Origin: Caldilineaceae bacterium
Lineage (GTDB): Bacteria; Chloroflexota; Anaerolineae; Caldilineales; Caldilineaceae
Direction: 5' to 3'
DNA: 64,000 nucleotides
NCBI GenBank assembly: GCA_011523365.1
Contig: WTGY01000020.1
Coordinates: 1 to 64,000 of the forward strand
The notes below the pieces were generated by a model. The model searched no databases and had not been told where the DNA came from. It saw only the letters and a program-made list of their open reading frames with translations. Numbering within the stretch: position 1 is the stretch's first letter; every line of letters starts with the position of its first letter. Below are positions 1,790-10,215 of the stretch, one piece after another. The translations under genes and the position numbers were made by a program.

Positions 1790-4700
1790 ATGCTTCGTTT
1801 CGCGTCGGCGCGCCCGGCTCGCTTCATCCTCGCGCTCGCCATTCTGGCGGCACTCGTCATTCCCTTCGTCGGGAGGGACAGTGCATCGCATGCCCAGGCC
1901 CCACCGGCGGCGCTGGACGCGCCCGTCCTGACGGCGGAGGCGGCCGAGAACGCGATCGAGTTGAGTTGGGAGGCGGTGGACGGCGCCACCCGCTACGAAC
2001 TGTGGACCTGGACCAGCGTCAACGAATGGGAGCGCCTGGACGACAGTTCGCTCACCGCGGCGGCGTACAGCCATACGGGACTCACGGTCGGGACGACCTA
2101 TTACTACTTTGTGCGCGCGGTCAACGACTCGGGCGCGGCGAGTGAATGGTCGGAGGAAAGGCAGGTCACCTTTACCGGGAGCGCGCCCACGGCCACGCCG
2201 CCGTCGACCGCGGACATGCTCGCCAGGCCGGTCCTGACGGTGGCGGCGGGCCTGAACTCGGTGGAGTTGAGCTGGGGCCAGGTGACCGGCGCGGACAGCT
2301 ACGAACTGTGGGTGTGGATAGACGCGGCCGGCTGGCAGCAGTTGGACGACGGCACGCTCAGCGGCACGACTTTCAGCCATACCGGCGTTGTCGAAGGCAC
2401 GACATACTACTACGCCGTCCGTGCATTGAACCGCGCCGGGGGGACGAGTCCGTGGTCGGAGTATACGCCTCTGACCTGGGTGCCCGTCACCGCCACGCCG
2501 ACATCCACATCCAGCGCTCCGCAGACAAGGACGGAGACCATCACCCCGTCCTTTGACTTCGTCGAAGACGTAATTCTGGTCACCTGGGATCCTCCCGCCG
2601 CCGGTTCGGTCAGCCACTACGTCATAACCCGCACGCACGTCGATCAGGGCGTGGAAAGCACAAAAACAATCAGAGTTGACGGCGCCGCGACCAGCTACCT
2701 GGACAACGACGTGACGATTGGTTTCAGCTACGATTACATTGTTACCGCGCATTTCCACGCTCCGACGGCTACGCCCACGCCTACCGTTACATCTACGCCT
2801 ACGGTTACGCCCACGCCCACGAGCACGCCGTCGGATGCGGCCGGGGACAGGGAGGCGCTTGTCGCCCTGTACAATGCGACGGACGGCGACAACTGGGACA
2901 GGAACGACAACTGGCTCAGCGACGCGCCTCTCGGAGAGTGGTACGGCATATCCACCGGCGGCAGACGCGTGACGGTCGTGAATCTCTACGGGAACAATGT
3001 GACGGGGTCTCTTCCCGAGCTGAGCGCTCTCACCGGCCTGAGAGAGATCAGATTCTGCTCCAACAATCTGACCGGTCCGATTCCGGCCCTGGACACGCTG
3101 ACGGAACTGGAGGAGTTGTGGCTCTGCGAAAACAAGCTCAGCGGCCCGATTCCCGATCTGAGCGCCCTCACGGAGCTGAGGGAGCTGTGGCTCTACGACA
3201 ACGAGTTGAGCGGGTCGATTCCGCGTCTGAACACGCTCACGAAGTTGGTGGAACTGCAACTGGGAGACAACAAGCTGAGCGGGACCATACCGGACCTGAG
3301 CGCGCTGACCATGCTGGAGGGCATAGGACTTGACAACAACGAATTGGGCGGGTCGCTTCCGGATCTGAGCAACCTCACCAGCCTGGATTCGCTGTCGATC
3401 ACCGGCAACGCGTTGAGCGGGACCATACCGGACCTGAGCGCGCTGACCAGGCTTCAAGTTCTGTCGCTGCATTCAAACAGGTTCACCGGGACGATTCCGA
3501 GTCTGAGTACATTTACCGACATGCAGACGCTACTTTTGGCGTCCAACCAGCTGAGCGGCCCGATCCCTGATCTGAGCGCCATGACCAAGCTGGAGGTCTT
3601 GAACCTGTCGAACAACCGGTTGACGGGCCCGATCCCGGACGTGAGCGCTCTCACCCGCGTCACGCACTTCTACCTGCGTCAGAACATGTTGACCGGAGAG
3701 CTGCCCGCGTCGCTCGGCAGCCTCGCCCGCCTGCACAATCTCTTTATCAGCGGCAACAGCTTCAGCGGTTGCGTCCCTCTTTCGTTGAGAGAGGTCCCCT
3801 ACCACGATCTGGACGACCTGGGCCTGCCGGACTGCACCACGCCTACGCCCACGGCCACCCCTACCGTTACGCCGACGCCTGGGGCCACGCTCACGCCCAC
3901 CAGTACGCCGACGCCGACAGCGACGCCGCCTGCCGTGACGTCCAAGCCGGCGTTGACGGCAACGGCCGGGGAGGGCAGCGTCCAACTGAGTTGGACAACG
4001 GTTCCCCATGCGGCGCGCTACGAAGTCAGAGCGTGGACGAGTGCAGTTCTGTGGGTGCCGCTGGACGAGCCCGTCGTGACCAATGCCGTCTATGCGCATA
4101 CGCAGCTTGAAGCGGGCACGACCTACTACTACTGGGTACGCGGGCTGAACGACGCAAACGAGCCGGGCCCCTGGTCGGAGCGCGCGTCCGCCACCGTCGC
4201 CGAAACGCCGCCGGACGCGGTCCCGACGAACACGCCGACGATCACGCCGACGCCTACGGTTACCCCGACGCCTACGGTTACGCCGACCATCACGCCGACA
4301 CCCACGGTTACGCCGGACTTCGCGGGCAAGGAAAGGGCGGCGCTCGTCGCGCTCTACAACGCGACCGGCGGCGCCGGCTGGACCAACAAGACCGACTGGC
4401 TCAGCGACAAGCCGGTTGGGGAGTGGTACGGCGTCAACACCAACGGCGAAGGACGCGTAAGGTCCCTGGTCATGGACGGCAACAATCTGGACGGGACGCT
4501 TCCGAGTCTGAGCGCCCTCGCCGCACTGGAGCACATCTCCCTGGAAAGGAACCAGTTGAAGGGGACCTTCCCGGATCTGAGCGCGCTTGGAGAGCTCAAA
4601 AATCTGCAGTTGAGATACAACCAGCTGACCGGGTCAATCTCAGGTCTGGGCACTCTCGGCAAGCTGGAGCGAATATTTGTCAACTTCAACCGGTTGACGG

Positions 4701-5539
4701 GAACGATTCCGGCCTCTTTGGGCAACCTCCCGCTGACCCACCTTTACATTCGGGAAAATCAGTTCAGCGGCTGCATTCCCGCGTCGCTGCAAAGCGTAGC
4801 GAGCAACGATCTGGACAGGGCGGGCCTGGCGTATTGCGGGATGCCGACGTTTACGCCTACGGCAACGCCGACGCACACGCTTACGCCCACGACCACGCCG
4901 ACGACCACGCCGACGCCGACGCCCACCGTCACACCGGCATTCCTGGACGCTGAAAGGGCGGCGCTCGTCGCGCTCTACAACGCGAGCGGCGGCGCCAACT
5001 GGATTCACAGAAACTGGTGGCTCAGCGACAGGCCGGTTGGAGATTGGTACGGCGTGAGCACGAACAGCGAAGGGAGAGTCATCGGTCTTCGCCTTGGCAG
5101 CAACAACCTGAACGGGACGCTTCCCAGTCTGAGCGCCCTCGCGAAACTGGGGGATGTTTTCCTCGGCAGGAACCAGTTGCGCGGGACAATTCCAAGCATG
5201 AGCGCTCTCCGGGAGCTCATAGCGCTGGAATTGCGGTACAACCAGTTTACCGGTTCAATTCCAAATCTGAGCACGCTCACCAAGATGACGGGATTGTTCC
5301 TCAATTTCAACCAGTTGACCGGGACGATTCCGACCTGGCTGGAAGACCTTCCTCTGACGGCGCTTTACCTGCGGGGAAATCAGTTGAGCGGATGCATTCC
5401 AGCATCGCTGCAGGACATCACGAACAACGACATGGACAGGGTGGGCGTGGCGTATTGCGGGATGCCCACGTTCACGCCGACGGCGACGCCGACTTCGACG
5501 CCGACGGCCACGCCAACGCCTACGGCAACCCCTGGTTAA
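1790..5539 (+). CDS. Large secreted protein with fibronectin-III domains and plant-type leucine-rich repeats
   Basis: A 1249-residue protein with an N-terminal signal peptide (basic start, hydrophobic stretch about 12-27, AHA-like cleavage region near 37). Fibronectin-III-like domains lie at about 42-128, 143-231 and 248-322, each with the ELSW...YELW pattern. A leucine-rich-repeat block follows at about 353-682, with some 12 repeats of the N-x-L-S/T-G-x-I-P type. A fourth fibronectin domain is at about 718-807, then two shorter repeat blocks at about 846-1018 and 1054-1225, each with five repeats. Each block starts with ALVALYNA...W, the cap of this repeat class. Pro/Thr linkers separate domains and end the protein; no anchor or sorting motif is seen. 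Blocks two and three look like a recent internal duplication. Likely extracellular binding or adhesion; the ligand is unknown. Confidence 0.85.
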   Translation: MLRFASARPARFILALAILAALVIPFVGRDSASHAQAPPAALDAPVLTAEAAENAIELSWEAVDGATRYELWTWTSVNEWERLDDSSLTAAAYSHTGLTVGTTYYYFVRAVNDSGAASEWSEERQVTFTGSAPTATPPSTADMLARPVLTVAAGLNSVELSWGQVTGADSYELWVWIDAAGWQQLDDGTLSGTTFSHTGVVEGTTYYYAVRALNRAGGTSPWSEYTPLTWVPVTATPTSTSSAPQTRTETITPSFDFVEDVILVTWDPPAAGSVSHYVITRTHVDQGVESTKTIRVDGAATSYLDNDVTIGFSYDYIVTAHFHAPTATPTPTVTSTPTVTPTPTSTPSDAAGDREALVALYNATDGDNWDRNDNWLSDAPLGEWYGISTGGRRVTVVNLYGNNVTGSLPELSALTGLREIRFCSNNLTGPIPALDTLTELEELWLCENKLSGPIPDLSALTELRELWLYDNELSGSIPRLNTLTKLVELQLGDNKLSGTIPDLSALTMLEGIGLDNNELGGSLPDLSNLTSLDSLSITGNALSGTIPDLSALTRLQVLSLHSNRFTGTIPSLSTFTDMQTLLLASNQLSGPIPDLSAMTKLEVLNLSNNRLTGPIPDVSALTRVTHFYLRQNMLTGELPASLGSLARLHNLFISGNSFSGCVPLSLREVPYHDLDDLGLPDCTTPTPTATPTVTPTPGATLTPTSTPTPTATPPAVTSKPALTATAGEGSVQLSWTTVPHAARYEVRAWTSAVLWVPLDEPVVTNAVYAHTQLEAGTTYYYWVRGLNDANEPGPWSERASATVAETPPDAVPTNTPTITPTPTVTPTPTVTPTITPTPTVTPDFAGKERAALVALYNATGGAGWTNKTDWLSDKPVGEWYGVNTNGEGRVRSLVMDGNNLDGTLPSLSALAALEHISLERNQLKGTFPDLSALGELKNLQLRYNQLTGSISGLGTLGKLERIFVNFNRLTGTIPASLGNLPLTHLYIRENQFSGCIPASLQSVASNDLDRAGLAYCGMPTFTPTATPTHTLTPTTTPTTTPTPTPTVTPAFLDAERAALVALYNASGGANWIHRNWWLSDRPVGDWYGVSTNSEGRVIGLRLGSNNLNGTLPSLSALAKLGDVFLGRNQLRGTIPSMSALRELIALELRYNQFTGSIPNLSTLTKMTGLFLNFNQLTGTIPTWLEDLPLTALYLRGNQLSGCIPASLQDITNNDMDRVGVAYCGMPTFTPTATPTSTPTATPTPTATPG

Positions 5540-8774: not shown

Positions 8775-8993
8775 GTAGGGGCAGGCCTTGTGCCTGCCCA
8801 CATGCTCCCTTACAAGCCCTCCTCTCCGTACCACAACTCATTCTCCCGTAGGGGCAGGCCTTGTGCCTGCCCTGGCACCCCCATACAAGCCCTCTTCTCC
8901 AACACACACCTCTTACTCCGGTAGGGGCAGGCCTTGTGCCTGCCCTGTACCTCTCCGAAAGCCGCAGAACATTTCCTGCCCCTGAGGACACAG
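8775..8993 (+). repeat. Three tandem 73-bp repeats carrying a hairpin
   Basis: The 25-base GTAGGGGCAGGC-CTTGT-GCCTGCCC module starts at 8775, 8848 and 8921, exactly 73 bases apart. It forms a perfect 8-bp stem (GGGCAGGC/GCCTGCCC) with loop CTTGT. The intervening 48 bases are also partly shared (ACAAGCCCT followed by a C/T-rich stretch). The third unit's tail is diverged, so the right boundary is approximate. No protein-coding content is supported here. Confidence 0.85.
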
Positions 8994-9150: not shown

Positions 9151-9175
9151 GTAGGGGCGCCCCTTGTGGGTGCCC
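9151..9175 (+). repeat. Single variant of the CTTGT-loop hairpin
   Basis: GTAGGGGCGCCC-CTTGT-GGGTGCCC has the same leader, stem length and loop as the 73-bp repeat module but different stem bases. Pairing is preserved (one G-T pair). This suggests the structure, not the sequence, is conserved. Confidence 0.7.
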
Positions 9176-9380
9176 TCTGCCGGATCCTGGTACCTCTCAA
9201 ATCAAGTAGCGACTGCCTGGGCCCTGAGAAGCCAGTTCGCTTGACATCAGAAAATCCGAAGGCGAAAGTACGCCGCCGCAAACCTAAGAACTTCGCGTAC
9301 CTCCTTTGCCAATGTCCCTTCAGATACCGCGAGGAGGGATGATTGTAAAGTCACCCTTGAGAATCAAAAAAGGTAAACAC

Positions 9381-9430
9381 TCCGTCGAAGTACGTCGTAA
9401 TCCGTCATAATCCGTCGAAGTACGTCCTCA
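9381..9430 (+). promoter_or_regulatory. Five phased 10-bp repeats abutting a promoter
   Basis: Five consecutive decamers begin with T(C/A)CGTC at 9381, 9391, 9401, 9411 and 9421. The first and fourth are identical, and units one-two repeat as four-five over 16 bases. The array ends one base before the -35 box at 9432. A 10-bp period puts every unit on the same face of the helix, as in an operator for a cooperatively binding regulator. The function is inferred. Confidence 0.6.
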
Positions 9431-9431
9431 C

Positions 9432-9460
9432 TTGCCAAAAACGTTCATATGTGCTATACT
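9432..9460 (+). promoter_or_regulatory. Strong promoter giving a leaderless transcript
   Basis: TTGCCA at 9432-9437, a 17-base spacer and TATACT at 9455-9460. The predicted +1 is at 9467, which is the A of the ATG, so the mRNA should have no 5' leader. Confidence 0.65.
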
Positions 9461-9466
9461 CTTGTC

Positions 9467-10012
9467 ATGACCGACGAAACCGCCCCTAAACCCTGGGAAC
9501 AGCAGCCCGACGAACCCCCCGAATGGTACGATCGCTTCCACGTCTATCTCAACTTGGGTCCGTCTCGCTCACTGTCAGGTGCCTTCCGCGCTTGGGCAGG
9601 CAGCACTGGTAAACACTCAGGGGCGGTCAGCAATGTGTCCAAAGAATGGAACTGGGTAGAACGCGCTCTGGCCTACGACCAGGCCAACCGTGAAGAAAAG
9701 GCCGCTTTCGAGGCCGCCCGTGAAGCCGAAGCACGCGAACGCCGCCTGCACCGCCTGGAGAAAATCATCGAGGACTCCGCCGCCGCCCTGGATATCGCCG
9801 ACTTGAAAAACCTTTCCCCACAGGAAGCACGCGCCCTGCTCCCTTCTCTTCGCCTCCTCTTTTCCAGCGCTGTCGAACTCCAGCGCCGCGAACTGCAGTC
9901 TGCCCCTGCCTCCGACCACTTCCCCGCGGCCTCCGGCTGGCCGGAATTGGACCCGGAGATAGAGAAAATCCTCGATATGTATGCCGATGAAGAGTCAGCA
10001 AGTAGTGAGTAA
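9467..10012 (+). CDS. Hypothetical DNA-binding-like protein (terminase-small-subunit-like N-terminus)
   Basis: A 181-residue charged, soluble protein. Residues about 15-60 (PEWYDRFHVYLNLGPSRS ... WNWVERALAYD) recall the helix-turn-helix start of phage small-terminase and related proteins, in which a W-x-W-x-x-R-A-x-x-Y/W-D motif follows the recognition helix. A predicted coiled coil rich in Glu, Ala and Arg covers about 68-100. The start is set by the promoter directly upstream rather than by ATG 9449. No phage structural genes are nearby, so it may be a domesticated phage-type or regulatory protein. The 280 bases after it hold no recognised gene. Confidence 0.5.
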   Translation: MTDETAPKPWEQQPDEPPEWYDRFHVYLNLGPSRSLSGAFRAWAGSTGKHSGAVSNVSKEWNWVERALAYDQANREEKAAFEAAREAEARERRLHRLEKIIEDSAAALDIADLKNLSPQEARALLPSLRLLFSSAVELQRRELQSAPASDHFPAASGWPELDPEIEKILDMYADEESASSE

Positions 10013-10215
10013 ACTTGCCGGTCTCGCAAGAGCCGCGCAGCGCGCTCGCCCCGCCTCAACTTCGCTCCCCTCCCTCAAGACATCTGAATCAGATCGGGAC
10101 ATAGCCACAGTAGGCAAATTGAGTCGGCTTGAGGCGGCACTTGTGAGCGCCCTTCATGGTGTGTCCATACGAAAGTATCCGAGGCCGTTTGCCAGGCGGT
10201 GATCGCGCGTAGCAG

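Follow-up and report, generated by a model that had tools for sequence, protein, structure and literature searches.

The window, by which we mean the whole 64,000-nucleotide stretch analysed here, belongs to a Caldilineaceae MAG of the Chloroflexota (G000, 5.67 Mb), in a genus whose MAGs, going by their bin names, appear to be largely sponge symbionts. An O-antigen-ligase-like gene and a NuoF-like gene flank the locus of a 181-aa gene at 9467-10012, which, like the features described around it, is on the + strand. An earlier note on this DNA had taken the product to be DNA-binding and had missed its identity: the protein matches PHROG 6299 (phrog_6299), terminase small subunit, with E 2.7e-15, which marks it as a predicted orphan terminase small subunit (TerS). 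All 14 of the 14 aligned homologues match the same family, with no other family at E 0.001, and a Pfam search of the product gave no match. Codons 34-63 (9566-9655) form a predicted helix-turn-helix (HTH), with helices at 36-44 and 52-60, so the note's DNA-binding assignment gains support from the family and the model. In the AlphaFold model, a monomer only, mean pLDDT is 76; the two HTH helices reach ∼90 and are followed by long helices. Comparison of this model with solved structures (PDB) gave no significant match, and four predicted phage proteins match it at E < 1e-3. The gene is under constraint: dN/dS is 0.09-0.41 for orphan TerS, compared to 0.30-0.73 for the large subunit (TerL), for which constraint is relaxed in some TerL pairs.

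Upstream of the gene, an A-rich lead-in (ATCAAAAAAGGTAAACAC, 9363-9380), similar to one that precedes most related arrays, is followed at 9381-9430 by the proposed TerS-binding array or operator. It consists of five 10-bp units with core [TC][CA]CGTC and zero gaps, in the order TCCGTCGAAG, TACGTCGTAA, TCCGTCATAA, TCCGTCGAAG and TACGTCCTCA; units 1-4 have an R[AT]A[AG] spacer, from which the CTCA of the fifth unit deviates. Three consecutive TMCGTC-N4 units, allowing ≤2 mismatches, were found as three overlapping matches in the window, all at the array, with 0 in 100 shuffles, and the reversed-pattern control gave 0 matches in the entire 5.67-Mb genome. Tandem Repeats Finder likewise assigned the array a period of 10. 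Its lag-10 self-match is 28/40, against a shuffle maximum of 21, and the 36 other ORF-upstream regions of the window score ≤20. Sequence, pattern search and shuffles thus bear out the earlier description of five gapless units reaching to one base (9431) before the −35 box. Repeats of other kinds occur elsewhere in the window: 1790-5539 encodes a protein of leucine-rich-repeat-like type, rich in tandem repeats and containing TPTPT linkers, and 8775-8947 plus 9153-9174 hold an intergenic repeat of type GTAGGGGCAGGCCTTGTGCCTGCCC, with short similar matches throughout the genome.

The promoter boxes that the earlier note proposed, with 17-base spacing, are present as described. A −35 box, TTGCCA (9432-9437), is followed after 17 bases by TATACT (9455-9460), then by the six bases CTTGTC and the ATG at 9467. 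The −10 element is extended, TGTGC-TATACT (9450-9460; extended form TGTGCTATACT), and TTGCAA, TTGAAA or TTGCCA stands at the −35 position in G007, G011, G016, G009, G017, G005 and G019b. Wherever relatives have an intact TGTGCTAT-type −10 (TGTGC-TATAMT type), an ATG lies exactly 6 bases later; for G016C160 and G007C364 this ATG is in frame and upstream of the one first assigned. Translation from an alternative ATG at 9449, in frame and further upstream, would run into a stop in G005 and G017, and G009 lacks this ATG. Leaderless genes with a TAtaaT box have been reported in Chloroflexi, where they make up ∼5% of genes in genomes where detected (PMC3160421). The conserved six-base distance, the closed or missing 9449 frame and this precedent support a leaderless start at 9467. 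Array and promoter also keep their phase: counted from the core of the last repeat, the −10 lies at a distance of 32, 33, 41, 51 or 60, close to a single phase modulo 10 in five lineages, and unit number shifts by whole decamers, with six units in G011.

We then looked for arrays in relatives. A period-10 array occurs within 260 bp upstream in 18/18 closer TerS genes of the genus (lag-10 self-match 22-38 of 40, p 0.002-0.028). No significant lag-10 array was found for nine distant TerS homologues (26-36% identity) or for four phage relatives. The expectation in the earlier note that the array would be conserved in relatives with the gene therefore holds for its place (18/18) and fails for its sequence, since the decamer differs between arrays. 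Units of TMCGTCRWAR type are found in the window, G007, G011 and G016; CACTACTTAC in G009; GTCGACTTRG in G005, G017 and G019b; CCCGACTTNN in G016C160 and G007C364; CGCGACATTT in G019a and G005C76; CCGGACTTGA in G018C8; GGGGACATTT in G015; and TACGAAYTTA in G018C8b. The arrays of C52 and G018C14 are degenerate. With the register set by hand, all arrays fit a common one, ∼NN[CG][GT][AT][CA]NNNN, typically NNCGACTTNN, with CGTC as the core in the window; hence one protein family could read them. Three copies (G011C22, G019a and G005C76) retain the array next to a decayed −10, and G015 and G018 have arrays without a leaderless promoter of the window type, indicating that the array is not tied to this type of promoter. 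Just upstream of some full TerS genes are short HTH-only TerS-like ORFs (L104:1064-1318, L111:308, L098:4581 and L112:259), some with stops, which have short arrays and promoters of their own. Also present are open reading frames of 430-526 aa that contain one or two stretches resembling the TerS HTH (G016:C111:11674-12705, G017:C1:23899-24930, G013:C12 and G012:C40), and the array is absent at those sampled (L070, L072 and L082).

What the earlier note missed is that the decamer sequence, rather than being conserved, appears to be replaced together with the HTH. Array distance, computed from decamer profiles, correlates with HTH identity (residues 34-63) across the 18 genes (r 0.71). When C-terminal distance is controlled, the partial Mantel r is 0.69 (p 0.0002, a value that ignores the tree), and for 11 cluster representatives it is 0.47 (p 0.02, which ignores relatedness). 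The C-terminus given the HTH explains nothing of array distance (−0.23 for 18 genes, −0.14 for 11 clusters). The clearest case is G009, which the nuoF tree places as sister to G016. Over residues 64-181 its TerS shares 94% identity with that of the window, over the HTH 53%, and its array also differs from the window array. Synonymous changes between the two fall at 25 of ∼40 sites in codons 1-63 versus 12 of ∼87 in codons 64-181 (Fisher 9e-8). It looks like array, promoter and HTH were exchanged here by recombination as one block, that is, a cassette swap. Because the repeat sequence and the DNA-reading domain change together, the array is very probably the site that this TerS binds.

These data bear on two other explanations. 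OmpR/PhoB- and SARP-type activators use tandem repeats abutting the −35 box, as the repeats do here, and a winged-helix protein of this kind, reading 10-11 bp direct repeats, could be the actual ligand. Since it is the TerS HTH, not the remainder of that gene, that the array follows in sequence, and since both appear to have been swapped at one locus, we regard such a regulator as very improbable. The array could also be a selfish or slippage-made minisatellite without function, as might be suggested by unit numbers that vary between close relatives and by related arrays scattered in the chromosome. Against this, place, register and promoter phase stay constant across lineages with different unit sequences, and the array co-varies with the HTH; we consider a functionless repeat improbable.

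We think it fairly likely, then, that TerS binds the array lying directly ahead of its own gene and that the array serves as its operator. In this model, the N-terminal HTHs would probably lie side by side in an oligomer, possibly a ring, with each subunit taking one decamer; successive HTHs would then all contact the same face of the DNA, spaced a helical turn apart. With the array lying against the −35 box and in helical phase with the −10, TerS bound there would block RNA polymerase or alter its activity, and the protein would in this way regulate the leaderless gene that encodes it. Direct repeats span the terS promoters in the pac region of phage SPP1, whose TerS presents its HTHs in a ring (PMC4737164). 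According to work cited there (its reference 87), SPP1 TerS (G1P) represses its own synthesis and operon. The earlier idea of autoregulation is indirectly strengthened by this parallel, as far as the citing source reports it, and by the co-variation of array and HTH, the array adjoining its own gene's promoter while varying with its own DNA-binding domain. That the sign of regulation would be repression is a guess from SPP1.

The gene's partner has been lost from the locus. At 9987-10037 the window retains a remnant of a TerL start (MKSQQVVSKLAGLARAA, compared to MKAKKLINKIARLEIAA at the TerL start in C52), with homology covering the first ∼17 codons only and stopping there. At this locus, TerS and TerL are complete in G005 and G019, TerS lacks TerL in G000, G007, G009, G011 and G016, and neither is present in G006, G010, G012-G015, G018 and G020. 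All five genomes with the orphan TerS (5/5) carry TerL elsewhere. TerS stands directly upstream of TerL in the homologues C52, G005C54, G019a/b, G016C160 and others. The paralogue in the same genome, on contig C52, is 60% identical and has TerL (Terminase_3/6N, PHROG 2) directly behind it; the MDYG motif of this TerL lines up with CDYG in large terminases of solved structure. The C-terminal tail of the orphan (codons 147-175, 9905-9991) is 83-86% identical to that of three locus-2 TerS proteins adjoining a TerL, in G000, G007 and G016, and exceeds the rest of the protein in identity. This similarity would fit a TerL partner in common.

Genes neighbouring the modules look cellular. Genes for XRE-ImmA/IrrE metallopeptidases, common in mobile elements, precede TerS-TerL at L112:491-1729, L105:18156-19334 and L110:11142-11999; the genomes concerned are G005, G019 and G016, at two different loci. 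No integrase or replication module was seen beside the TerS modules, and no clean insertion boundary or target duplication could be defined at the locus because its intergenic flanks are full of other repeats. Searches for Phage_portal, HK97 capsid and SPP1 portal (PF04860, PF05065 and PF05133) found none in G000 and none in G019, a complete genome with two TerS-TerL pairs; the only matches were in G011 and G015. In G000 and G019 the packaging-motor genes thus stand alone, without the three capsid and portal families searched. An origin from sampled phage was considered and rejected: there are 0 TerS matches in 50,697 phage records, and TerL identity is <60% everywhere. The TerL of phage contig L215 is 50% identical, and its terS region has no significant array. 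Scanning viral contigs by pattern gave 45 stretches for the window type and 0 for the GTCGACTT type. PADLOC reported nothing convincing.

Elsewhere in the chromosome the decamers turn up again, which the earlier note did not register. Window-type decamers recur in this genome at C41, C158 and C186 (twice), away from TerS genes, in non-coding units of ∼345 bp (L019, L020 and L021) that are sometimes tandem. Each unit runs from an A-rich lead-in through an array and a TGTGYTATAAT-type promoter to a module of 182-189 nt and the next array. Unit clusters of G000, G007, G009, G011 and G016 hold CGTC and ACTACTT arrays, and those of G005, G017 and G019 mainly GTCGACTT arrays (G017 type), so that dispersed types match the TerS-linked types of each subclade. 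Because several units occupy the same intergenic place in different genomes, they are not recent. We also asked what the units might encode. A structured RNA was rejected, with an Rfam gathering search of four loci empty and RNAalifold not outperforming shuffled columns, as was a coding gene ahead of the units, where only shared non-coding sequence was found. Among 17 genomes of the genus, TerS and dispersed units co-occur in 10/10 versus 0/7 (Fisher 5e-5). On the nuoF tree there are only about two changes in presence, and the unit match of G015 and G018 is a marginal 70 bp; hence we give this co-occurrence no weight.

The simplest guess is that these units are further TerS targets. A TerS regulon of this kind would extend the operator reading and is compatible with it. 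The window-type decamers at C41, C158 and C186 stand in units with a promoter, and from one subclade to another the dispersed array types change along with the TerS-linked ones. However, the 182-189 nt module has no conserved gene or RNA fold, and several array types occur within one unit cluster; we see the regulon as possible but doubtful. The dispersed arrays, which exist without any gene, also bear on a reading of the array as purely a packaging or cleavage site, bound by TerS only to recruit TerL, with promoter proximity incidental and no regulation. It agrees with the arrays that G015, G018 and the promoter-decayed copies keep without a leaderless promoter, and with the usual position of the phage TerS site at or beside terS (for SPP1, see PMC4737164). 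The promoter-array phase kept in five lineages speaks against it, as does the window lineage itself, which has lost TerL at this locus but keeps an intact array, promoter and TerS. We treat a pure packaging site as a real possibility, though not one we would back. Under the operator model, the array of the ancestral TerS-TerL module would also have been a TerL loading site, pac/cosB-like, and some packaging or DNA-cutting role may remain, as may a present role of TerL. More speculatively, and in our view rather unlikely, the whole could be a domesticated capsid-less terminase, in which TerS paralogues with exchangeable HTH and array cassettes share one common TerL and act on several cognate arrays dispersed over the chromosome, as a machine for marking, cutting or mobilising DNA rather than phage packaging.

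Autoregulation at a TerS-pac site is already known, and on present evidence the locus is not a new category. As in SPP1/SF6, repeats overlap the terS promoter region and TerS has an HTH; autorepression is SPP1's, as cited in PMC4737164. In contrast to these phages, here there is a strict 10-bp array of one motif, motif and HTH co-vary, and none of the tested phage head genes is in the genome. A single HTH of SF6/SPP1 TerS binds DNA weakly, with little sequence specificity (PMC4737164), so decamers matched in sequence would be a departure. Three further systems invite comparison. SaPI/PICI satellites also have a TerS outside phage with its own specificity, and some modules here come with an XRE-ImmA/IrrE gene; unlike those satellites, they show no integrase or replication module beside them, full modules include TerL and no helper phage is known. 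Gene transfer agents share the chromosomal, vertically kept terminase, but neither G000 nor the complete G019 genome contains a capsid or portal from the families searched. In phage immunity regions, the repressor's DNA-binding domain and its operators are exchanged together. The lambdoid ones thus resemble the apparent exchange of domain and sites as one cassette here, the difference being that a terminase subunit is involved and that its sites are arranged in tandem.

The larger finding is what appears, from sequence comparison, to be a family of terminase modules standing by themselves, with operator arrays that are matched to their TerS and can be exchanged. Where such terminase pairs persist under purifying selection but lack the tested head genes, one may ask what purpose a packaging motor serves without a known capsid. 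DNA selection by pac-type small terminases is unsettled, the best-studied ones binding with little sequence specificity. This family comprises about ten naturally occurring TerS/array pairs that differ in their decamers, plus what appears to be a cassette swap in a protein that is nearly identical elsewhere, and so would make both a specificity code and the geometry of one HTH per turn directly testable.
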